From IMG/VR virus record IMGVR_UViG_3300046411_000570, positions 1 to 55,015 of that record: a stretch of DNA of 55,015 bases, one strand, 5' to 3'. This document shows positions 3,770 to 29,521 of the stretch, piece by piece. The position numbers and the translations under genes were made by a program. This DNA is from a virus. The first letter of the stretch is position 1, and every line of letters starts with the position of its first letter. Under the pieces are notes generated by a model, which saw only the letters and a program-made list of their open reading frames with translations, searched no databases and was not told where the DNA came from.

Positions 3770-4426
3770 ATGGAATTAACAATAGCAATATTATTAGGTA
3801 TAGTGTGGTCTCAAATTATTTCACATTTGGGTGCCAGCATTTTATTACACAGGCATTATTGTCATAAACAATTTAAAGTGCCTGCTTGGTTTGAGGTAAT
3901 GGGTTTGAGTATGTTGATGATAGCTTGCATAAGAACACCGATAGGGTGGATTGCAAGTCACCGGATGCACCACACACATTCAGACGGACCCGAAGACCCT
4001 CACGCTTCAAAATACGTAGGTTTTTGGAAAGTATTATTTACGACTTGGGATATAAAAAAGATACCTACAAAATATGCAAAAGATTTATTTAAAAATCCTA
4101 GATTAGTATTTTGTCATAGACATTGGTTAAAAATATTAATAGCAGTATGGGTAATTAGTTTTCTAATTAGTCCTTACTTCTTTATAGGATTTGCATTAGT
4201 ACCTTTTATATTCGCAAAAATAGGATTTGGATTACTGAATACCATAGGACATAGAACACCAGGTGGTGCCAATGTTGCTTGGTTAAATTTGTTTATTGCA
4301 GGTGAAGGCTATCATAAAAATCATCACGAAAATTTTAAAAGAATTAGATTACATAAGTTTGACACAGGTGGTTGGCTAGCAGAGAGATTATTTAAAGATT
4401 ATGAACCAAAAAGAAAGACTACTTAA
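3770..4426 (+). CDS. Membrane fatty-acid desaturase (delta-9/acyl-lipid type)
   Basis: The 218-residue protein has the three histidine boxes of membrane di-iron desaturases: HRHYCH (27-32), HRMHH (64-68) and HKNHH (182-186), with a further NTIGH (His161). Hydrophobic segments near 1-25, 43-60 and 122-155 would anchor it in the inner membrane. Such enzymes put a cis double bond into acyl chains using oxygen and electrons from ferredoxin or cytochrome b5. It is shorter than bacterial stearoyl-CoA desaturases (about 300 residues) but retains all boxes. Its 3' end overlaps the aminotransferase gene by 26 bases. Desaturases are known accessory genes of marine T4-like phages. Remodelling host membrane lipid is the likely role (inference). 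Confidence 0.9.
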   Translation: MELTIAILLGIVWSQIISHLGASILLHRHYCHKQFKVPAWFEVMGLSMLMIACIRTPIGWIASHRMHHTHSDGPEDPHASKYVGFWKVLFTTWDIKKIPTKYAKDLFKNPRLVFCHRHWLKILIAVWVISFLISPYFFIGFALVPFIFAKIGFGLLNTIGHRTPGGANVAWLNLFIAGEGYHKNHHENFKRIRLHKFDTGGWLAERLFKDYEPKRKTT

Positions 4427-5189
4427 ACAATCATTAGCTATTAGAACATTCCCTATTGCAAAAATAAAAGCAATATGTGATAAGTTCAAATTAGATAATC
4501 ATACAGAGGTAAAGCCGTTCTCTTCAAATATAACAGAGTGGCTAGAACCTGTAATTAATCTATCAGATTTTCCTTACTTATATCCAGCAAACGGTGTAAC
4601 CGAAGGCCTTAATTATTGGTATATGCAAGAAAACAGAAAAGTTTTTAGACATAAAGATGATTATGTATGGTTGCCAGAAAGTCATTCAGGTGATATAATA
4701 TATTTAAGTTGTCCTTCATCTATTGATGGTAACATTGTAGATATACCAACAACAATGCCAGTAGCTTTAGATATTGCATATGTTGGTTCTCTTTCAGAGA
4801 AAATAAAAATAGAAGTACCATACAATGTTGAAAAGGTATTTTTCTCATTAAGTAAATGTTTTGGACTACGAAATTATAGAATAGGATATTACTGGTCAAG
4901 AACGCCAGATAAACAACTTGAAAGATTAATAGGTTCGGCAAAATATTATAATTATCATTCAATGCAATTAGGTGAAAAAATAATAAAAGAAGTTAGCCCT
5001 TATGCAGTACATAATACTTTAAAAAAATATCAAGATAAGATATGCAGAGATTTAAACTTTAGTGCTTCAGATAGTGTGTGGTTAGCAACAACAGAAAACG
5101 AAGAATATAATAAATTTAAAAAGGGTAATGCAAACCGAATAAGTTTGTGTGATTTAATACAAGATGAATATAACAGGCGTATCATTTAG
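4401..5189 (+). CDS. Short class-I/II PLP aminotransferase-like protein
   Basis: The C-terminal half contains FFSLSKCFGLRNYRIGYYW, the classic fold-type-I signature with the PLP lysine at Lys152 and the phosphate-binding Arg at 160. NGVTEGLNYWY near 64-74 corresponds to the cofactor phosphate loop. At 262 residues it is much shorter than normal aspartate/histidinol-phosphate-type aminotransferases (350-400): most of the C-terminal small domain is missing. The reading frame is intact and overlaps both neighbours by 26 bases, so it is an evolved compact form and not a decayed gene. Amino donor and acceptor cannot be read. Placement beside the FMN reductase and oxygenases suggests one pathway (inference). 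Confidence 0.75.
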   Translation: MNQKERLLKQSLAIRTFPIAKIKAICDKFKLDNHTEVKPFSSNITEWLEPVINLSDFPYLYPANGVTEGLNYWYMQENRKVFRHKDDYVWLPESHSGDIIYLSCPSSIDGNIVDIPTTMPVALDIAYVGSLSEKIKIEVPYNVEKVFFSLSKCFGLRNYRIGYYWSRTPDKQLERLIGSAKYYNYHSMQLGEKIIKEVSPYAVHNTLKKYQDKICRDLNFSASDSVWLATTENEEYNKFKKGNANRISLCDLIQDEYNRRII

Positions 5190-5742
5190 TTATAGTAATG
5201 ATTCAATGAACCATAGAGGTTTATTATTAATGAATCGTTATTTAAACTTTAAACATATTATTAAAATGAATCTACCTATTTGTAATTCAAATAAACCTGA
5301 CGGTAATATACCTATTTCAGTAGAAGATTTGGATAAAAAATTAAAAGATAGTGATGTTTTAGTATTTGCAATACCAGAATATACAGGTCATTATTCAGTA
5401 GGATTTAAAAATCTTATGGACTGGTTGGTTGTTAAAGCTTATTATAATGCAGACCTAGGTCAAAAGTATTCTATATCAAATAAACCTGTATATGTAATAA
5501 CGTTTACACCTGCCAAGAAAGGTGTAGGTGATAGACACTTTGATATGACAAAAGATATATTGACAAAACTAGGTAGTCAAGTAAAAGATATGTGGGCAAA
5601 AAACGATTGTTGGGAAAATTTAACTCCTGAAAACTATAAGTTTGTAGAAAAAGAATGTAAAAAAATATTAAAAAAAGATATGATAGATGAAGTAAGTGGT
5701 TGGCAACAAAAGTATGATGATTGGAATGATAAATGGAAGTAA
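5164..5742 (+). CDS. NADPH-dependent FMN reductase-like flavoprotein
   Basis: The 192-residue protein matches the flavodoxin-like NAD(P)H:FMN reductase/quinone reductase family. The segment VLVFAIPEYTGHYSVGFKN followed by LMDW is the hallmark flavin-contact region (family form: PEYNGS...LKNAIDW). An N-terminal beta strand with Ser residues (VSFSYSNDS) would hold the FMN phosphate. It could supply reduced flavin or act as an oxidoreductase. No ferredoxin gene is nearby. It starts within the 3' end of the aminotransferase gene and overlaps the peroxiredoxin gene by 10 bases. Substrate and partner are unknown. Confidence 0.8.
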   Translation: MNITGVSFSYSNDSMNHRGLLLMNRYLNFKHIIKMNLPICNSNKPDGNIPISVEDLDKKLKDSDVLVFAIPEYTGHYSVGFKNLMDWLVVKAYYNADLGQKYSISNKPVYVITFTPAKKGVGDRHFDMTKDILTKLGSQVKDMWAKNDCWENLTPENYKFVEKECKKILKKDMIDEVSGWQQKYDDWNDKWK

Positions 5743-6155
5743 AAGGATTATATTGGTTAAAAGATAATTATATTAAACCTTATGATATAGATGAGGGTAA
5801 AAGAATTATTATGTGTGGTGTTCCAGGTGCTTTTACAGAAAATTGTACTTATGAACATCTACCAGGTTTTGTTAGTAAACTAGATAAACTAAAAGAGTTA
5901 GGTATAGATAAGGTCGTATTTGTTTCAGTAAATGACGCTTATGTTATGTGGACTTGGAACAAAATGCACGGTCATAAAGATATTGATAGTGTATCAGACC
6001 CGATAGCAGAATTTGCTAAATCAAAAAAGAAAGACCTTGATTGGGGAAAAACTTTTGGCGTTAGAAGTTCAAGATATGCCTATCTATGGGAAAATGGCAA
6101 GATTGTAAAAGAATTTAAAGACCCTTATATTGATGGAGTGATAAAAGAATTATGA
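5733..6155 (+). CDS. Peroxiredoxin (Prx5/AhpE-like redoxin)
   Basis: The 140-residue thiol peroxidase carries GVPGAFTENC with the peroxidatic cysteine at Cys38 in the family motif P-x3-T-x2-C, followed by LPGF. FVSVNDAYVMWTW is the conserved Prx5 segment and RSSRYAY carries the active-site arginine. It reduces hydrogen peroxide or organic peroxides. A resolving cysteine is not obvious, so recycling may use host glutathione or thioredoxin. It is somewhat shorter than bacterial Prx5 (about 160). Ends overlap both neighbours (10 and 4 bases). With several oxygenases in the operon, peroxide control is a sensible role (inference). Confidence 0.88.
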   Translation: MEVKGLYWLKDNYIKPYDIDEGKRIIMCGVPGAFTENCTYEHLPGFVSKLDKLKELGIDKVVFVSVNDAYVMWTWNKMHGHKDIDSVSDPIAEFAKSKKKDLDWGKTFGVRSSRYAYLWENGKIVKEFKDPYIDGVIKEL

Positions 6156-6808
6156 TACCAGGAATAGCAGAGTACGTAAATATAAAACCAGACTATGATA
6201 CTTTAAATAGATTGTATGTAGAAGTAAAGGCTACATCATCAAATACATTTGGTAAAACACCATTTAAAAGTTATTCATTAGAGGATAATAGAACAGGTGT
6301 GCCTACTGGTTACGAACAATTATTTGATTCTATATTATCAAAACATAAAGAAGTACATCCACATTATCAATTTCGTTCAACAGGTTTTAACACAGCAGAT
6401 AGTACAGAAAAGGATGTATTTGCTCATACAGATATTGATTTAGATACTGAACACCCGAATGGTTATAATGTTGTCATACCTATATTTGGAAACTCAAAAA
6501 TAATTTACTATGAAACTAAAGATGATGAAGTTTATTTACCTGAAAAGAATGCTCACGGTTATGCATATTATCACGAATTTAAAGCACAAAAAGAAATGGG
6601 TCAATATACACCAGAGTTTGAAAAGTTTTTAAGTGAAAGAGAGATTGGTCATATTGTAGTTGATAAACCAATACTAATACAAACTACTACAATGCATAGA
6701 GTAGTGGTGACAGAGGCACCTAGGTGTGCTTGGGTGACAAGATGGAATAATATTCCTAAAGATATAAGTTTTAGTCAATTCAAACAAAAGGTAGAAAATA
6801 TATTATGA
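6152..6808 (+). CDS. 2OG-Fe(II) oxygenase-like jelly-roll protein
   Basis: The 218-residue protein has a plausible double-stranded beta-helix core. VFAHTDID supplies His-x-Asp, NVVIPIFGNSKIIYYE forms the next strands, and TTTMHRVVVTEAPRCAWVTRW supplies the distal His and an arginine at the 2-oxoglutarate position. The order and spacing fit a 2OG dioxygenase. Identity to a named subfamily cannot be judged by eye. It is coupled by four-base overlaps at both ends (ATGA) to the peroxiredoxin and the TauD-like gene. Substrate unknown. Confidence 0.6.
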   Translation: MIPGIAEYVNIKPDYDTLNRLYVEVKATSSNTFGKTPFKSYSLEDNRTGVPTGYEQLFDSILSKHKEVHPHYQFRSTGFNTADSTEKDVFAHTDIDLDTEHPNGYNVVIPIFGNSKIIYYETKDDEVYLPEKNAHGYAYYHEFKAQKEMGQYTPEFEKFLSEREIGHIVVDKPILIQTTTMHRVVVTEAPRCAWVTRWNNIPKDISFSQFKQKVENIL

Positions 6809-7617
6809 TAAATCCAGAGAAGATAGATGTACAAATAAAAGAGCTATCAAAAGAACAATTAATAGATATATCAAAAGGTATACACAAACAAGGTGTAGCA
6901 GTATTTTACAATCAAAAACTAGATGAATCTGAATACATAAACACATTAAAAAAATTTGGTGAATGTGAATCACCAGATTTGTTTATGAATCCTAAAGAAC
7001 ATCCGGAAATATTTTTAGTCACGGGCAAGAGAGACAAAGACGGTAAAAAACTTGGTATGTTTGGCGATACAGAATTAGGCTGGCACTCAAATGGTAATTC
7101 ACGACACTTAATAGATAAAATATTAATTAGTTTATATTGTGTAAAAGAAGATATTAATACAACGTTAAGTGTTTGCAATACTCAAATGCCTTTCTATGAT
7201 ATGTCAGATGATGAAAAAGAATATTGGCGTTCAATTACAATTAGACTTAAATTTAAAAACAATACAATATATGATTTAGAAGAAGGCGACCCCGAGTTAG
7301 AGTTTATGAGTAAGAACAAAGGTAGTATTCGTAAACTAGTTGGTCAACATCCACATACTGGTTTAGAATACTTTTATTTTCCTTATCACTTTATCACGAA
7401 AGCTTGGGAAGGTAAGAAACAAATTGACGCTGAAGAAATGATTAAAAAATTAATGCCTAAAATATTTAAATCTCAATATCAATATCATCATATATTTAAA
7501 GAGGGTGATTTATTATTAATGGACCAATTTACAAGTTTACACCGTAGAACACCTGTAATGGATAATAATCGTTTACTATGGAGAATAGCTGCAGATTTTA
7601 ATAATGTCTATAAGTAA
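6805..7617 (+). CDS. TauD/TfdA-like dioxygenase with His-x-Asn in place of His-x-Asp
   Basis: The 270-residue length and overall pattern match TauD/TfdA 2-oxoglutarate dioxygenases. ELGWHSNGNSR (His94, Ser95, Asn96) aligns with the WHTD metal motif. MDQFTSLHRRTPV supplies the distal His246, and RLLWR (Arg256, Arg260) supplies the 2OG-binding arginine. The usual metal-ligand Asp is Asn here, which may weaken or alter iron binding. TauD enzymes hydroxylate sulfonates or other small acids, and relatives act in natural-product pathways. It starts four bases inside the previous gene, and its end overlaps the methyltransferase start by 14 bases. The family call is good; catalytic competence is uncertain. 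Confidence 0.72.
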   Translation: MINPEKIDVQIKELSKEQLIDISKGIHKQGVAVFYNQKLDESEYINTLKKFGECESPDLFMNPKEHPEIFLVTGKRDKDGKKLGMFGDTELGWHSNGNSRHLIDKILISLYCVKEDINTTLSVCNTQMPFYDMSDDEKEYWRSITIRLKFKNNTIYDLEEGDPELEFMSKNKGSIRKLVGQHPHTGLEYFYFPYHFITKAWEGKKQIDAEEMIKKLMPKIFKSQYQYHHIFKEGDLLLMDQFTSLHRRTPVMDNNRLLWRIAADFNNVYK

Positions 7618-8221
7618 AAGAATACCTTGGCCTAAAATAACAACAAAGACAGGTAACGTGCCTTTGATGAAAGAGTATGCTATGCAAGATATGTGGTATC
7701 TTGATACACCAGAGGCTAAACCTATTTTTGAAAAACAAGCTGATATAATAATTGAAAATGAATATAAAGGTATAGTAGATGTTGGTTGCAGACACGGTCC
7801 GGTAAATGAAATCTTATATGAAAAAAATTATAAAGATTATCAGTATTATGGTTTTGACACTTCATTAGAACCTATTAATATAGCACAATACGAATGGGTT
7901 GGCAACCTTAATATTGAATATGCAGTAGGTGATTGGTCAAATTTAAAACCTGTTAGTTATAAAGTAGATTGTATTATTTTTAGTGGAGTTTTATTATATG
8001 AAAAAGAACATTATAATATGTTTACAGATATTATGAAATTCTATAATTGTAATAATGCTATAATACAAGAGCCTTATCATACTCAAAAACATTATGATGA
8101 AAGATTAAATTTAAAAACTATTACAAGAGATATGCAACAATATGATTTTTGGGAAGAACATATTATTGACGCAGAAATATTTTGTGGTAGAAGATTAGTA
8201 GCACACGCAAAATTATTATGA
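7604..8221 (+). CDS. Class-I SAM-dependent methyltransferase-like protein
   Basis: The 205-residue protein contains IVDVGCRHGPVNEIL, the glycine-rich SAM-binding motif I. YYGFDTSLEPINIA follows with the acidic residue (Asp) that binds the ribose hydroxyls, then VGDWSNL and CIIFSGVLLY as later Rossmann strands. These features fit a class-I methyltransferase acting on a small molecule or protein. The specific target is not evident. The gene overlaps its neighbours by 14 and 4 bases within the accessory operon. Confidence 0.7.
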   Translation: MSISKRIPWPKITTKTGNVPLMKEYAMQDMWYLDTPEAKPIFEKQADIIIENEYKGIVDVGCRHGPVNEILYEKNYKDYQYYGFDTSLEPINIAQYEWVGNLNIEYAVGDWSNLKPVSYKVDCIIFSGVLLYEKEHYNMFTDIMKFYNCNNAIIQEPYHTQKHYDERLNLKTITRDMQQYDFWEEHIIDAEIFCGRRLVAHAKLL

Positions 8222-8802
8222 TTGTAAAAAGATATTCTGAAGACCCTAACAAATATTGGCCATTGATAGAAAAGTTTAGATTACAAACTTTTGATGAAGG
8301 TAATGATAGTTTAACTCGTAAAAAATATAATCCAGATAATGAAGATATTGAAACTTGGATGTGTTTTAAAGATGATAAGTTAATATCAATATCGGCAGCT
8401 GAAAAATCACATTACACAAATGACCCCGATATTGCAGTTAGAGTATGTCGTTATCACATTTTAAAAGAACATAGATTTACTCATTGTGGTTTAATTATGG
8501 CAGAGTATCAAATTAAATGGGCAAAAGAAAATAATTTTAAAATACTCTATATTACCCACGACATTAAAAATAAAGCGATAAATAATCTATATCAAAGAAA
8601 ACGAAAAATGACCGATAAGGCATTTAAAGATTATATAAAAGGAGAATGGTACACAAAATTACAATTAGAAAATAAGTTTTTATTTAAAACTGGTAAAATG
8701 TTGCAGTATGTTTATAGCATTAGATTACAAGATGACAATTTTAAATGGCAACCAAAATCTGATTACATTATAGAAAGAGAACATAATGGACAAATTAACT
8801 AA
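8218..8802 (+). CDS. GNAT-like acetyltransferase (tentative)
   Basis: The 194-residue protein has a layout like GNAT N-acyltransferases: an N-terminal helix-strand region, WMCFKDDKLISISAAEKS as the central hairpin, RVCRYHILKEHRFTHCGLI where the acetyl-CoA loop would sit, and FKILYITHDIKNKAINNLYQ as a late strand and helix. The Q/R-x-x-G-x-G/A pyrophosphate loop is not canonical, so the call is uncertain. It begins in the stop region of the methyltransferase gene (four-base overlap) and overlaps the next gene by 17 bases. No signal peptide. Confidence 0.4.
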   Translation: MIVKRYSEDPNKYWPLIEKFRLQTFDEGNDSLTRKKYNPDNEDIETWMCFKDDKLISISAAEKSHYTNDPDIAVRVCRYHILKEHRFTHCGLIMAEYQIKWAKENNFKILYITHDIKNKAINNLYQRKRKMTDKAFKDYIKGEWYTKLQLENKFLFKTGKMLQYVYSIRLQDDNFKWQPKSDYIIEREHNGQIN

Positions 8803-9406
8803 ACATAAACTACCTAGTGTAGCAGACCTAAAACTTGATATAGATTTAGAAAAATTAAGAAATGCTACAAATACATTAGCAAATGATTTTAAAGATGTAA
8901 AATCAGCAAACCCTATGTTATGTGATAATCATATGGATTTAGTAAAAAGTGTATATGATAACTTTGAACAAATTAACTTAACAACACCTAGTGAAATATT
9001 ACCACACACTTTAAGTATTAAAGAACGATTAAAAAGAAAAGAAGAACACTTATATAATGTACCAACACCAGAATATACAGGTAGTTATTTTGAACATATT
9101 GTAAAACAATGTAAAGCACCAGCCAGTAGAATTAGAATTACAAAATTAGCACCAGGTAAGATGATACCTTTTCACGTAGATTATGATGTAAATTATGGTG
9201 TTAGATGTATTGTTCCTATATTTGGTGGTGAGAACGTAGTAAACTTATTTAAAAGAGATAAAGTTGAGGCTTATACTTTAAAAGACGGTACTGCTAATTT
9301 TTTAAATATTGGCTTTAAACACGCAGTAATTAATATGAGTAATAGACCAAGAATCGCCTTGATGTTTACTCTAAATGGTACAAAAGATATAGAAAAACTA
9401 TTATAA
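8786..9406 (+). CDS. Aspartyl hydroxylase-like 2OG-Fe(II) oxygenase
   Basis: The 206-residue protein has a clear cupin-type 2OG oxygenase core in its C-terminal half. LAPGKMIPFHVDYDV gives His-x-Asp, VRCIVPIFGG the following strand, and GFKHAVINMSNRPRIALMF the distal His and the 2OG-binding Arg. This order is typical of Asp/Asn beta-hydroxylase-like enzymes. It is the last gene of the ten-gene accessory operon. Its final codons sit within the late promoter (9402-9409) of the next transcription unit. Substrate unknown; it may act on a side chain or on a product of the upstream enzymes. Confidence 0.7.
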   Translation: MDKLTKHKLPSVADLKLDIDLEKLRNATNTLANDFKDVKSANPMLCDNHMDLVKSVYDNFEQINLTTPSEILPHTLSIKERLKRKEEHLYNVPTPEYTGSYFEHIVKQCKAPASRIRITKLAPGKMIPFHVDYDVNYGVRCIVPIFGGENVVNLFKRDKVEAYTLKDGTANFLNIGFKHAVINMSNRPRIALMFTLNGTKDIEKLL

Positions 9407-24492: not shown

Positions 24493-26730
24493 ATGTCTTT
24501 TGATTTAAAAGATTTTAAACTAAAGTGGCAAGGACCTTGGAAAGATAGGACTGCTTATTCTAAAAACGATATCGTTTCTTGGAAAGGTAAGTCTTATAGA
24601 TGTATTCAAGATTGTCCTATTGCATATTCAATATCAATAGATGGTTTAGTTAACACTAACAACTATTCTTTTGACCCACCTAGATTGGTTCAAAAATCTT
24701 TTAGACCAGATAATGCAAAATATTGGCAATTATTTTTACGTTCAACAGACGATATTGGCGAATGGGAAATGTGGAGACAATACGAGCCAGGTGAAATGAC
24801 TACGGTTGGTAGAAGAATTTACCAATGTATAAAAAGAACAAGAAAATATAATACTTGGGTTGTAGAACACGACGGAAGAGATTCAGAATATTGGGTGATG
24901 ATTTATGAATCACCTTTTGCATATCCAGATAGAAACAAAGTTGTATCATACACTAACAGAGCTCCTTTAGGGTGGAAATACAATATGGGTAGAAACTCAT
25001 ACGAAAGACAAGCCAACTATACAATGGGTGTAATTGAATCAAATGGTGATTTCGTAGGTCAAGGTGGTAATAACTCTACTGGACAAATGGGATTTGGTGA
25101 CGGTCAAGAAGGAAATTCAAGAATGGGTAGAAGTCGTTATACTGGATTTACTATGGTTGACTGGATGGTTTCTACTGACAATAAAGATTTAACACAAACT
25201 GAACATACAGGTAGAATGGTAACTCCTGATGGTAAGGCACCAAAAGTAATTCAACACGTATCAAGCACAAACTCTAGTTTCTGGCTAATGAATAACGGAG
25301 AAGTTTATTCTGCTGGTGATAACTCAACATACGATTTAGGTCATCACATAGCGGTAACAAATACAACAGATAGATATTATGCAAATAGAGTATCAGCAGA
25401 TGATACGGTAGATTGGTTAGGTGAAACTATACGTTCATTTAACAATACAAAAATTGTAAAAATAGGTTCTTCAGGTCAAGGTCAAAACTCTGAAGGTAAT
25501 CAACAATTTGCATTAGGCGAAGACGGTTCAGTATGGACTTGGGGTAGAAACAATCAAGCACAATTTGGTGGTGGTAACCCAGGAATAAACAACTCAACTG
25601 ACTTTACTGGTGGTTCGCCTTACTCATTTGCTTTCTATTCAGTTAACGTAAAAAGACCTATTAAAATTCCTCAAGAATTTTTTAACAACAAAAGAATCGT
25701 TGATATGTGGGCAGAGGGCTGTACTGAGCCATCATTCCACGCATTAGACGAAGATGGTTGGTTATGGTTCTGGGGTCAATCAGTTCACGGTGGTGCTGGT
25801 GTAGGTTCTAACTCACACACTTCCGAAGGAACATATTACTATTATATTCCTAGAAGAGTTGAAGTAGATTGGAACAAATACGGTGGTATGAAAATGCTAC
25901 AACATTGGGGTTATTCAACTCAATCACACGTAGGTACTTGGGTACTTGATGGCGAAGGCTACTTATGGTACACAGGTTACTATACAAGTGGACAGGCACC
26001 AGGTTTTTATGGATTAGGTGATAACTCAACTAGATATCAGTCTATGTTTAAAAGAGCAGACTTTCATTTAAACGGAGATGTAGATGAATTCTGGTTAGGT
26101 GGTGATGAACATAAATGGATGTACATAAGACAAAAATCAACAGGTATGTTATGGATTTCTGATGGTAACTATGGTACTTATGGTACAAGAGGTTCACGTT
26201 CACAACAAGGTTACTGGTACAACTCTGGTGGTATTCACGGAATGTTCTCTCACGTAAGAGGACCAGCATATACTAAATGGGTTACAGGTCAAAACGAAGG
26301 AAGAGGTGATGGTTCATACATTTATGACTCACCAATTATATTAGATGAAGACGGTAGTTTCTGGTACGGTAATGCTTATGACTATGCATTTACGGCTTCA
26401 GGTCATTCTGATTCACCTAATAACGGTTCTGATGGATATTGGCATATGCCTTCTCAAGGTTTTGAAGATAACTCTACAAACAGACATAGAAAAAGAAGAG
26501 GTGTACAACCAATGAATAGTAGATTAACAGATTTACACTGCTATGGTTACCCTACAGCTCAAAACTATGCATACAGAAATTGGGACGGTAAAATATTCCT
26601 ATCAGGTTATCAACCAAATAACCAAACACACCTATACGAAGGTATGTCTTATAGATATCAGTCAGCAACTGGTTCATCTTGGGGTAGTAATAACTATCGT
26701 GCTCATATGAAATCTCCTCCAGGAGATTAA
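24493..26730 (+). CDS. Fibre with RCC1-like propeller repeats
   Basis: The 745-residue fibre has the shared N-terminal module at residues 9-40 (LKWQGPWKDRTAYSKNDIVS, then WKGKSYRC). RCC1-type repeats run from about 180 to the end: GDFVGQGGNNSTGQMGFG, GEVYSAGDNSTYDLG, GSVWTWGRNNQAQFGGG, GWLWFWGQSVHGGAGVG and YLWYTGYYTSGQ. It lacks the long central region of its two larger relatives, so it is nearly a bare attachment module plus propeller. Likely a receptor-binding or auxiliary fibre. It is the last fibre gene before the bilin cassette. Confidence 0.82.
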   Translation: MSFDLKDFKLKWQGPWKDRTAYSKNDIVSWKGKSYRCIQDCPIAYSISIDGLVNTNNYSFDPPRLVQKSFRPDNAKYWQLFLRSTDDIGEWEMWRQYEPGEMTTVGRRIYQCIKRTRKYNTWVVEHDGRDSEYWVMIYESPFAYPDRNKVVSYTNRAPLGWKYNMGRNSYERQANYTMGVIESNGDFVGQGGNNSTGQMGFGDGQEGNSRMGRSRYTGFTMVDWMVSTDNKDLTQTEHTGRMVTPDGKAPKVIQHVSSTNSSFWLMNNGEVYSAGDNSTYDLGHHIAVTNTTDRYYANRVSADDTVDWLGETIRSFNNTKIVKIGSSGQGQNSEGNQQFALGEDGSVWTWGRNNQAQFGGGNPGINNSTDFTGGSPYSFAFYSVNVKRPIKIPQEFFNNKRIVDMWAEGCTEPSFHALDEDGWLWFWGQSVHGGAGVGSNSHTSEGTYYYYIPRRVEVDWNKYGGMKMLQHWGYSTQSHVGTWVLDGEGYLWYTGYYTSGQAPGFYGLGDNSTRYQSMFKRADFHLNGDVDEFWLGGDEHKWMYIRQKSTGMLWISDGNYGTYGTRGSRSQQGYWYNSGGIHGMFSHVRGPAYTKWVTGQNEGRGDGSYIYDSPIILDEDGSFWYGNAYDYAFTASGHSDSPNNGSDGYWHMPSQGFEDNSTNRHRKRRGVQPMNSRLTDLHCYGYPTAQNYAYRNWDGKIFLSGYQPNNQTHLYEGMSYRYQSATGSSWGSNNYRAHMKSPPGD

Positions 26731-26772
26731 TAAATACTTTATAGTATATTATTATTAACAAAGTGAGTTGAA

Positions 26773-27429
26773 ATGTATAAAACAAATTTAAATCTAAAAA
26801 ATTTTAAAAAGCATAAAGTCTTTTCTGACTTTTCAGATACTTCAATTTATCCTAAAGAACAACAAGCACAATATTGGTGGAATGTTTGGACTTATATTGA
26901 TAGACTTGAAGGTATGATGACAGAAATTGATTTTGAACATTTAAATCAAGGTCCTGAATTATTTAAAATGTGGAAAGATAAGTGGCCGTTTGATTTAACA
27001 CCCGAAATAGGTGGTGCTCCAGCTCACGCAACTTTACCAACACAATTAGATGGTTTTTCATATGTTGGTGAACAATTTAATTTTTATGGTATTAAACAAC
27101 ATAGAGTAGATATACCAAAAGATTGGTTTGATTTACAAGTTGTTTATATTACAATGTTATCTATGTATTCACAATTGTTAAATGTTGATGAAGATATAAA
27201 AGCATTTACATTACCACTATTTAAATACAATCCTAAAAAATTTAAAAGAGTACAAATAAAAGTTGTTAGTGCAATTGTTAATGTATCTGATTTTGTTATT
27301 GCAACACCAGATGTATTTAAAGAAACTATGGAAATGGGCGAATGGCGATTGAAAGAAGCTGATAAACAGATTGGTGCTTGGCAAGAAGGATATCAAATAA
27401 ACGAAGATGGAACAAGAGAAGAAATATAG
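26773..27429 (+). CDS. Unknown protein, first gene of the ho1-pcyX cassette
   Basis: The 218-residue soluble protein is not recognised. It is rich in Trp, Phe and Tyr (QYWWNVWTYIDR; KMWKDKWPFDL) and appears alpha/beta. It has a His/Pro segment (APAHATLPTQLDG) and QHRVDIPKDWFDLQVVYI, but no cysteine pair, heme motif, ferredoxin motif or signal peptide. Its 3' end overlaps the heme-oxygenase start by 23 bases, so both are translated from one message. The upstream gap has only a weak late-box variant (AATAAATA near 26729) and an AAGTGAG ribosome site. A role in bilin handling or in supplying electrons is conceivable but rests on adjacency only; it could equally be a virion-region protein. Confidence 0.6.
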   Translation: MYKTNLNLKNFKKHKVFSDFSDTSIYPKEQQAQYWWNVWTYIDRLEGMMTEIDFEHLNQGPELFKMWKDKWPFDLTPEIGGAPAHATLPTQLDGFSYVGEQFNFYGIKQHRVDIPKDWFDLQVVYITMLSMYSQLLNVDEDIKAFTLPLFKYNPKKFKRVQIKVVSAIVNVSDFVIATPDVFKETMEMGEWRLKEADKQIGAWQEGYQINEDGTREEI

Positions 27430-28009
27430 AATAAAAGACCTGACTTGGGAGTATCATAAAAATGCTGAAAGGCAACAATTTGTGGGACTTTTATTATCAG
27501 GTAATATTGACGAAAAATTATATGCAACTTATTTGTATAATCAGTTAATTTGTTATGGTAAATTAGAAGAATATTGTTTAGAAAGTTCTTTGTTTATGGA
27601 TACAAAATCTTTACCAAGAGCACCTCATATTTTCTATGATTATAAGGCTTTATGGGGCGATACAGATAATCCTCCTATTGAAACAGAAAGCACAAAAGCA
27701 TACGTTAAACATTTAGATACTATTAGAGGTGAAAACGAAAAACTATATGCTCACGTTTATGTTAGACATTTAGGTGATTTATCTGGTGGTCAAATGATTA
27801 TGAAGAAAACGCCGGGACCTAATAGATATTATATTTTTAAACACGGTGAAATTAAAGAATATAAAAGAATAGTAAAAGAAAGAGTTGAAAGTTATTTAAA
27901 TTTATATGAAGTAAATGTATTGCCTGAAGCAATATATTGTTTTGAAAACGCAACAAAATTATTTAAGGAAATGTATGATTTGGGACAGACTAATCAAGTG
28001 GCAAAATGA
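27407..28009 (+). CDS. ho1: Heme oxygenase (biliverdin-forming)
   Basis: The 200-residue protein is a canonical HO-1-type enzyme. The N-terminal proximal heme ligand is His17 in WEYHKNAER. The distal-helix signature VRHLGDLSGGQMI spans residues 119-131, with GDLSGG at 123-128. Helical spacing and length (200 against 210-240 in cyanobacteria) fit. It opens heme to biliverdin IXalpha, CO and iron using oxygen and reduced ferredoxin. The ATG at 27407 lies inside the upstream gene, and the pcyX start lies 35 bases before the ho1 stop, so the three form a coupled cassette. No ferredoxin gene is in the window, so host reductant is expected. Confidence 0.95.
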   Translation: MEQEKKYRIKDLTWEYHKNAERQQFVGLLLSGNIDEKLYATYLYNQLICYGKLEEYCLESSLFMDTKSLPRAPHIFYDYKALWGDTDNPPIETESTKAYVKHLDTIRGENEKLYAHVYVRHLGDLSGGQMIMKKTPGPNRYYIFKHGEIKEYKRIVKERVESYLNLYEVNVLPEAIYCFENATKLFKEMYDLGQTNQVAK

Positions 28010-28679
28010 GACTATTGAAGTCTTAAATAAAAATCTGGTTGAATATGATGAACCAGGTATGGAAAGATTCAATGATGAAAAGTTAGGCTGGGTTAATAGA
28101 ACCTGGAATAATAGATATATTAGAAGAGCTCATTTAGATGTTGTTGATGTAAGAGAATCTAAAGGTTTATGGATGGCTCATCTATGCCTTTTTCCTATGT
28201 TAACTAATGGTGGACCGATTTATGGTTTTGATATCATTGCAGGTCAAAAAAAGGTAACAGGTGCTTTTCACGATTTTAGTCCATTATTACAAAAAGACCA
28301 CCCATTAACAAAGTGGTTTATAGAAGAAAATAAATGGTACAAACCTAGCAAAGAGAGAGAATTACCAGATTGGGCAAAGGCTATTTTTAGTGGTGGAATG
28401 ATAGCCGCTGGTAATGTAAGAGAAGAAGATGAATTAAATAAAATTTGTAATATGGCTGTTTCTAATTTAAATAATTATATAGATAAAATTAGAAATCACG
28501 AAGGTGAAGCAGAAATGAAAGATGTAATTAAAGCACAAAATTACTATTCTGAACACCAACAAAAGAATCCACATACACCTAGAGTTATGCAATCTCTTGG
28601 TTTACCAGATGAAGATATTAAATTATTCTGTTCCGACAACCTATTCCCGATAGTGTCAGAAAACCAACCCTATCTGTAA
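27975..28679 (+). CDS. pcyX: Ferredoxin-dependent bilin reductase, PcyA/PcyX type
   Basis: The 234-residue protein matches the HY2/FDBR family and is closer to PcyA than to PebS. Manual alignment to PcyA: AHLD gives Asp55 where PcyA has catalytic Glu76; WMAHLCLFP gives His69 (PcyA His88); PIYGFDIIAG gives Asp86 (PcyA Asp105). ELPDWAKAIFSGG and NYYSEHQQKNPHTPRV are further family blocks. PcyX enzymes from uncultured oceanic phages reduce biliverdin to phycoerythrobilin; that product is predicted here, not shown. The first in-frame ATG is 27915, but ATG 27975 follows AAGGAA and begins where family similarity starts, so I chose it. It overlaps ho1 by 35 bases. Confidence 0.88.
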   Translation: MIWDRLIKWQNETIEVLNKNLVEYDEPGMERFNDEKLGWVNRTWNNRYIRRAHLDVVDVRESKGLWMAHLCLFPMLTNGGPIYGFDIIAGQKKVTGAFHDFSPLLQKDHPLTKWFIEENKWYKPSKERELPDWAKAIFSGGMIAAGNVREEDELNKICNMAVSNLNNYIDKIRNHEGEAEMKDVIKAQNYYSEHQQKNPHTPRVMQSLGLPDEDIKLFCSDNLFPIVSENQPYL

Positions 28680-28686
28680 TAACTAT

Positions 28687-28694
28687 TATAAATA
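28687..28694 (+). promoter_or_regulatory. T4-type late promoter box before gp13
   Basis: Exact TATAAATA just after the pcyX stop, 20 bases before the gp13 ATG (28715), with AAAGGT as ribosome site. It separates the bilin cassette from the neck genes. Confidence 0.72.
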
Positions 28695-28714: not shown

Positions 28715-29521
28715 ATGGCAGAACCAGCAACAAGAGAGAATTTAAAACAATATGCTTTAAGAGCATTAGGTAAGCCTGTAATTGAAATAAACGCAGATGA
28801 TGACCAACTTGAAGATAGAATTGATGAGGCATTACAATACTTTGCTCAATACCATTATGATGGTGTAAAAAGAACATATTTAAAATATCAATATACACAA
28901 GCGGATAAAGATAGAATGACAACTGATTCTACTGAATCAGCTACAGCTGACTCTGTGACTACTAGTTGGAAAGAAGGACAAAATTTTCTATCAATACCTA
29001 GTTCTATTATATCTATTATTAATATCTTTCCGTTTTCAAATAAAGGTAATCTAAATCTATTTGATGTTAGATATCAATTAAGATTAAATGATTTGTATGA
29101 TTTTTCATCCACATCAATTGTTAACTATGATGTTGTATTAAGACATTTAGATTTTTTAGACCACATTTTAGTTGGTGAAAAACCTATGAGATTTAATCAA
29201 CACGAAAATAAATTGTATGTTGATATGGATTGGAAAAATGATTTACAAGTAGGTGAATATCTTGTAATTGAAGCATATAGAAAATTAGACCCAGCAACAA
29301 ATACGGATGTGTTTAACGATATATTTTTAAAAAGATATGTGACTGCTTTATTTAAAAAACAATGGGGTGCTAATCTATCAAAATTTGGTGGTGTACAAAT
29401 GATAGGTGGTGTCACATTAAACGGTCAACAAATATATATGGATGCTATTAGTGATATAGAAAAATTAGAGTTAGAGATAAGAAGTTCATTTGAATTAAAT
29501 CCAGCAATGATGATAGGGTAA
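28715..29521 (+). CDS. gp13: Neck protein gp13
   Basis: The 268-residue protein is recognised as the T4-type head-completion/neck protein gp13. It opens with a helical segment ENLKQYALRALGKPVIEINA, followed by DDDQLEDRIDEALQYFAQYH, the signature of this family in marine T4-like phages. T4 gp13 is about 309 residues. It forms the ring under the portal with gp14. It is first in the gp13-gp14-gp15-gp16-gp17 run, behind its own late promoter. The order alone supports the assignment. Confidence 0.88.
   Translation: MAEPATRENLKQYALRALGKPVIEINADDDQLEDRIDEALQYFAQYHYDGVKRTYLKYQYTQADKDRMTTDSTESATADSVTTSWKEGQNFLSIPSSIISIINIFPFSNKGNLNLFDVRYQLRLNDLYDFSSTSIVNYDVVLRHLDFLDHILVGEKPMRFNQHENKLYVDMDWKNDLQVGEYLVIEAYRKLDPATNTDVFNDIFLKRYVTALFKKQWGANLSKFGGVQMIGGVTLNGQQIYMDAISDIEKLELEIRSSFELNPAMMIG

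Follow-up and report, generated by a model that had tools for sequence, protein, structure and literature searches.

Described ho-pcyX Loci and Their Distribution

The closest described system belongs to the Pelagibacter phage Mosig EXVC030M (MT647606), cultured on Ca. P. ubique HTCC1062, in which the genes of heme oxygenase (HO), the bilin reductase PcyX and gp13 overlap in this order. In addition, a marine hemO-pcyA/X-alaS cassette was reported in 2024 (PMC11480375). That report gives it a pelagiphage origin via gp13 and acknowledges as an open question what use a pink light-harvesting pigment would be to phages whose host bacterium is non-photosynthetic.

The window, that is, the whole 55 kb virus record analyzed here, is an incomplete genome with no larger genome behind the record and comes from a T4-like phage near the pelagimyophages. 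Its PcyX and gp13 are 82% and 83% identical to those of Mosig, which carries a ferredoxin gene elsewhere in its genome. With the hemO-pcyA/X-alaS cassette of marine myophages, the window shares the genes for the route from heme to bilin and their place next to gp13. The ho-pcyX pair beside gp13 is thus already known from the Mosig genome and from PMC11480375, and the window is a further member. Mosig differs in having other fibre genes and a 2OG-Fe(II) oxygenase preceding HO, in the stead of the family-less gene of the window (hereafter U). The cassette of PMC11480375 differs in its alaS, for which a TIGR01821 search of the window (a fragment) and of Mosig gave no match. On the contrary, alaS is present in a sister clade of nine loci (L252-L260) with the order fibre-U′-HO-PcyX-AlaS-gp13, where it was confirmed by TIGR01821 in four records and where a protein named here U′ holds the place of U.

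The T4-like context proposed in the first-pass annotation is correct. The PcyX cassette that it associated with oceanic phages is indeed present, but this is not a first sighting, since Mosig and PMC11480375 precede it. It had also reported no photosystem or phycobilisome gene and supposed a non-photosynthetic host. In agreement, no photosynthesis or phycobilisome gene was seen among the window ORFs scanned, and the host is probably non-photosynthetic, because the nearest relative in culture is a phage of Ca. Pelagibacter ubique.

The scan of IMG/VR retrieved 71 loci with the cassette, and PcyX is retained with HO in nearly all of them. Most of the best 80 gp13 relatives have HO/PcyX immediately upstream, which is an indication of a stable cassette address; the others have tail-fibre genes in this position. 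In two near-identical contigs (L127:774-1340 and L131:1723-2289) HO abuts gp13 without PcyX. As for PcyA, the sequence of L210 (Nonlabens xiamenensis) groups with cyanophage P-TIM40 and that of L195 (a Bifidobacterium breve MAG) with Synechococcus WH 5701; both are probably due to contamination or misnamed bins.

Gene Organization of the Cassette

Three overlapping ORFs, encoding U, HO and the bilin reductase, occupy positions 26773-28679 between a fibre gene and gp13 (table 1). U and ho overlap by 23 nt, and ho and pcyX by 35 nt. This arrangement, as first annotated, was recovered by ORF, Pfam and PHROG analyses. The order U-HO-PcyX is repeated in more than 30 related IMG/VR contigs and is therefore neither chance nor an accident of assembly.

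Table 1. Features of the Cassette and Its Borders in the Window
Feature	Position	Strand	Evidence or remark
fib745, RCC1-like fibre gene	24493..26730	+	Pfam WD40_RLD 3.7e-14; upstream neighbor of U
AT-rich hairpin followed by T-rich stretch, gap between fibre gene and U	26728..26754	+	Folding and alignment
U, 218 aa, family-less	26773..27429	+	Probable catalytically dead HO-derived protein, judged from sequence
ho, heme oxygenase, 200 aa	27407..28009	+	Pfam Heme_oxygenase (PF01126) 1.2e-18; PDB matches to HO-1 and HO-2; motifs
pcyX, ferredoxin-dependent bilin reductase of PEB synthase type, 234 aa	27975..28679	+	PDB 5owg; Asp55/His69/Asp86; tree
TATAAATA, T4-late-promoter-like word preceding gp13	28687..28694	+	Pattern search
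gp13 neck protein	28715..29521	+	PHROG 211 3.4e-43; fixed downstream neighbor of the cassette

The stem of the hairpin preceding U varies across three clades with its pairing retained (ATACT/AGTAT, ATAGT/ACTAT and AAGACTT/AAGTCTT), and its folding just modestly beats shuffled sequences (z about -0.7 to -1.3). The hairpin overlaps a AATAAATA word (26729-26736) and the stop codon of the fibre gene. The TATAAATA word preceding gp13 showed no enrichment across the whole window in the pattern search and is a hint at most.

Heme Oxygenase and Bilin Reductase

The two enzymes can be named from their sequences with near certainty as a heme oxygenase and a PcyX. HO retains the proximal His17, and its GDLSGG motif starts at residue 123. 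The profile check suggested earlier for the reductase matched Fe_bilin_red (PF05996) at 7.8e-16, exceeding the curated cut-off. Its reading frame is open from 27915, and the ATG at 27975 puts residue 1 level with that of PcyX_EBK42635, a marine metagenome protein of known structure (PDB 5owg). All 234 residues align to this protein with about 94% identity. The active-site residues are identical, and the 13 substitutions (counted by hand in the printed alignment) leave residues 55, 69 and 86 unaffected. Cyanobacterial PcyA structures are the next PDB matches (4e-14).

Asp55 of the window reductase stands at the position of PcyA Glu76, while His69 and Asp86 are retained. Asp is found there in 75/75 distinct phage PcyX proteins (74 by pattern and one by eye, RRAHIDIVD) and Glu in 39/39 PcyA-type proteins (31 genome-derived and eight from cyanophages). 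The PcyX proteins form a single group in a quick tree (SH-aLRT support 100), which separates PcyX from PcyA only, PebA and PebB having been left out and PebS being too long-branched to place. Of the tree proposed in the first-pass annotation, the grouping with PcyX apart from PcyA was obtained, and the assignment of the reductase to the PcyX type rather than PcyA stands on Asp55, the tree group and the identity to 5owg. Published work, including PMC11480375, describes PcyX as a phycoerythrobilin (PEB) synthase acting via 15,16-dihydrobiliverdin (15,16-DHBV). By analogy with the characterized relative, PEB from biliverdin is the predicted product.

It is very improbable that the reductase is a PcyA with phycocyanobilin as its product, or that the host is a cyanobacterium whose phycobilisome is tuned by the phage. 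The Mosig gene is annotated as phycocyanobilin:ferredoxin oxidoreductase, PcyA is present in cyanophages, and a freshwater enzyme, CB_2, turned out to be PcyA according to PMC11480375. However, Asp instead of Glu at residue 55, the PcyX grouping and an identity of 21-25% to cyanophage PcyA, against about 94% to the characterized PcyX, argue against such an enzyme. Similarly, the absence of photosynthesis genes among the scanned window ORFs and the nearest isolate being a SAR11 phage argue against such a host.

Gene U and Its Sister Protein

No family was assigned to U in Pfam, PHROGs and PDB searches, and the search of isolated phages gave no match. Its relatives, from about 35 IMG/VR loci, fall into two deep types, which are 77-100% and 36-42% identical to the window copy, respectively. 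U is under purifying selection, with NG86 dN/dS of 0.23-0.35 within types (0.13 for HO).

The sister protein U′ connects U with HO. Among 1653 sequences searched, the HO profile picked up U′ at E 5e-10. The U profile in turn recovered U′ at E 2e-6 and 24.2 bits, whereas none of 9006 control sequences, shuffled or reversed, scored above 10.6 bits. With hhalign, the U′-HO comparison gave 2.1e-8 and the U-U′ comparison 1.2e-4 (about 67 N-terminal columns), whereas the direct U-HO value of 0.054 was not significant. In U′, the proximal His is gone and SEIM(V/T)NQG stands where HO has GDLSGG. Both the proximal His and GDLSGG are absent from U, which therefore is not classed among the heme oxygenases. 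AlphaFold gave all-helical models for U (pLDDT 75-76). With these models Foldseek returned nothing significant, and the highest TM-scores (0.34-0.40) were to TenA and AetD, which we take to be HO-like folds. U′ occupies the position of U, matches U as well as HO, and is devoid of both the catalytic His and GDLSGG. Hence, U is quite probably a dead protein derived from a heme oxygenase, in which the heme ligand and the distal motif would have been lost. U, as a probable dead relative of HO, may be what is new at this locus.

Two other identities were considered for U and rejected. A 2OG-Fe(II) oxygenase, like the neighbor of HO in Mosig, does not agree with the lack of a match and the all-helical model. 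As a diiron HO-like oxidase, U would be missing the usual ligand set, since a single His is invariant.

A works-like comparison is offered by Plasmodium PfHO, an inactive heme-oxygenase-like protein which is retained (PMC11634067). Both are HO-derived scaffolds without the active-site residues, kept by selection, but PfHO is a eukaryotic organelle protein, and the parallel is no more than an analogy.

The first-pass annotation had counted U as a part of the cassette. The overlap with HO agrees with this, but the divergence of U follows that of the fibre genes and not of HO/PcyX (pairwise distances r 0.93-0.98 with the fibre genes, 0.56 with HO and 0.37 with PcyX), so U is not clearly a member of the bilin cassette and a bilin role for it is unproven. 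It is possible, though on balance doubtful, that U, regardless of its origin, belongs to a tail-fibre module as an adhesin-like partner or fibre chaperone and plays no part in the bilin pathway. Apart from the distances, its position directly 3′ of the fibre gene and its absence from HO-PcyX loci with other fibres point in this direction. On the other hand, in every U locus the gene shares 1-38 nt with HO, U′ in the same place is related to HO, the hairpin sits between the fibre gene and U, and U away from HO was not found in the IMG/VR loci surveyed. Furthermore, the correlation comes largely from the split into two types and may just mark a recombination border. Co-occurrence cannot decide the role of U, because every U or U′ locus with enough upstream sequence has both fib745 and HO. 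As a more speculative and rather unlikely possibility, SAR11-type phages may pair a catalytic HO with a preceding degenerate HO-derived partner (U/U′), which would handle heme or bilin or steer PEB to a target. If true, such a pairing would add to the phage bilin pathway an element that has not yet been described.

Possible Use of the Bilin Pathway

Taken as a whole, the explanation that appears somewhat favored is a known ho-pcyX pair beside gp13, accompanied by an HO-derived U and serving a heme/iron benefit. HO would cleave the heme of the host, yielding biliverdin, Fe(II) and CO. Judging from the characterized relative, PcyX would convert biliverdin to 15,16-DHBV and then to PEB with electrons from a ferredoxin, which would probably be phage-encoded. 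A 2Fe-2S ferredoxin gene is found in the two longest relatives (Mosig and one of 109 kb), and by its cysteine spacing the protein looks adrenodoxin-type. The benefit would lie in heme turnover, with iron freed for iron-dependent enzymes of the phage, and PcyX would clear biliverdin, hence a bilin-binding protein would be unneeded. This benefit is tentatively preferred, at somewhat less than an even chance.

Searches for phycobiliprotein (PF00502) and GAF domains gave none in 15 records (the complete Mosig and 14 related ones), with control genomes positive. Consequently, a phycobilisome use and a GAF photoreceptor were both rejected for the records searched. For the photoreceptor suggested in the first-pass annotation, Mosig, the only complete relative, thus offers neither a GAF nor a phycobiliprotein acceptor. 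Since there is no obvious biliprotein, weight shifts toward the heme/iron use, the other purpose suggested there. The two contigs keeping HO without PcyX and the iron-enzyme genes nearby point the same way. The window encodes TauD, an Asp/Arg hydroxylase, a fatty-acid desaturase, a 2OG oxygenase and a peptide deformylase, families which usually require iron, although such neighbors may just reflect the general abundance of these genes in these phages. Loci without U frequently have a 2OG-Fe(II) oxygenase gene immediately in front of HO (PF13640 in 11/23 and PF13759 in 10/23, overlap uncounted). Against the heme/iron use, iron release alone leaves the retention of PcyX in nearly all loci unexplained. 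It is this retention, by which the bilin product seems to matter, that speaks for PEB as the chromophore of a phage or host bilin-binding protein (a phytochrome-like receptor or a BBAG-type globin) sensing light or redox during infection. Bilin-binding globins adjoin related reductases in heterotrophic bacteria (PMC10151467), and PMC11480375 describes the CB_2 phage product as able to load phytochrome on co-expression. The lack of GAF and PF00502 in the 15 records stands against such a chromophore, even if PF00502 may miss distant BBAGs, and makes it unlikely. For the question of why these phages make the pigment, the locus offers handles in the cultured Mosig/HTCC1062 pair, the phage ferredoxin and the likely dead HO relative.

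Other genes were observed around the cassette. A metabolic island at positions 3770-9406 of the window comprises a fatty-acid desaturase, FMN reductase, redoxin, TauD, methyltransferase and Asp/Arg hydroxylase in an order matching that of Mosig. In one clade (L136:2256-3284, and also L138, L139, L141, L143, L145 and L152), a DUF401 membrane protein (PF04165, 1.6e-6) overlaps HO by 8 nt; if a transporter were linked to the cassette, this would be informative about what the cassette is for. By eye, a 2OG-Fe(II) oxygenase-like gene sits between HO and PcyX in L055:7384-8004 and L157:3644-4282, and flavin-dependent tryptophan halogenase-like proteins of about 520 aa are encoded a few genes ahead of HO in L040:4085-5638 and L055:4132-5706.
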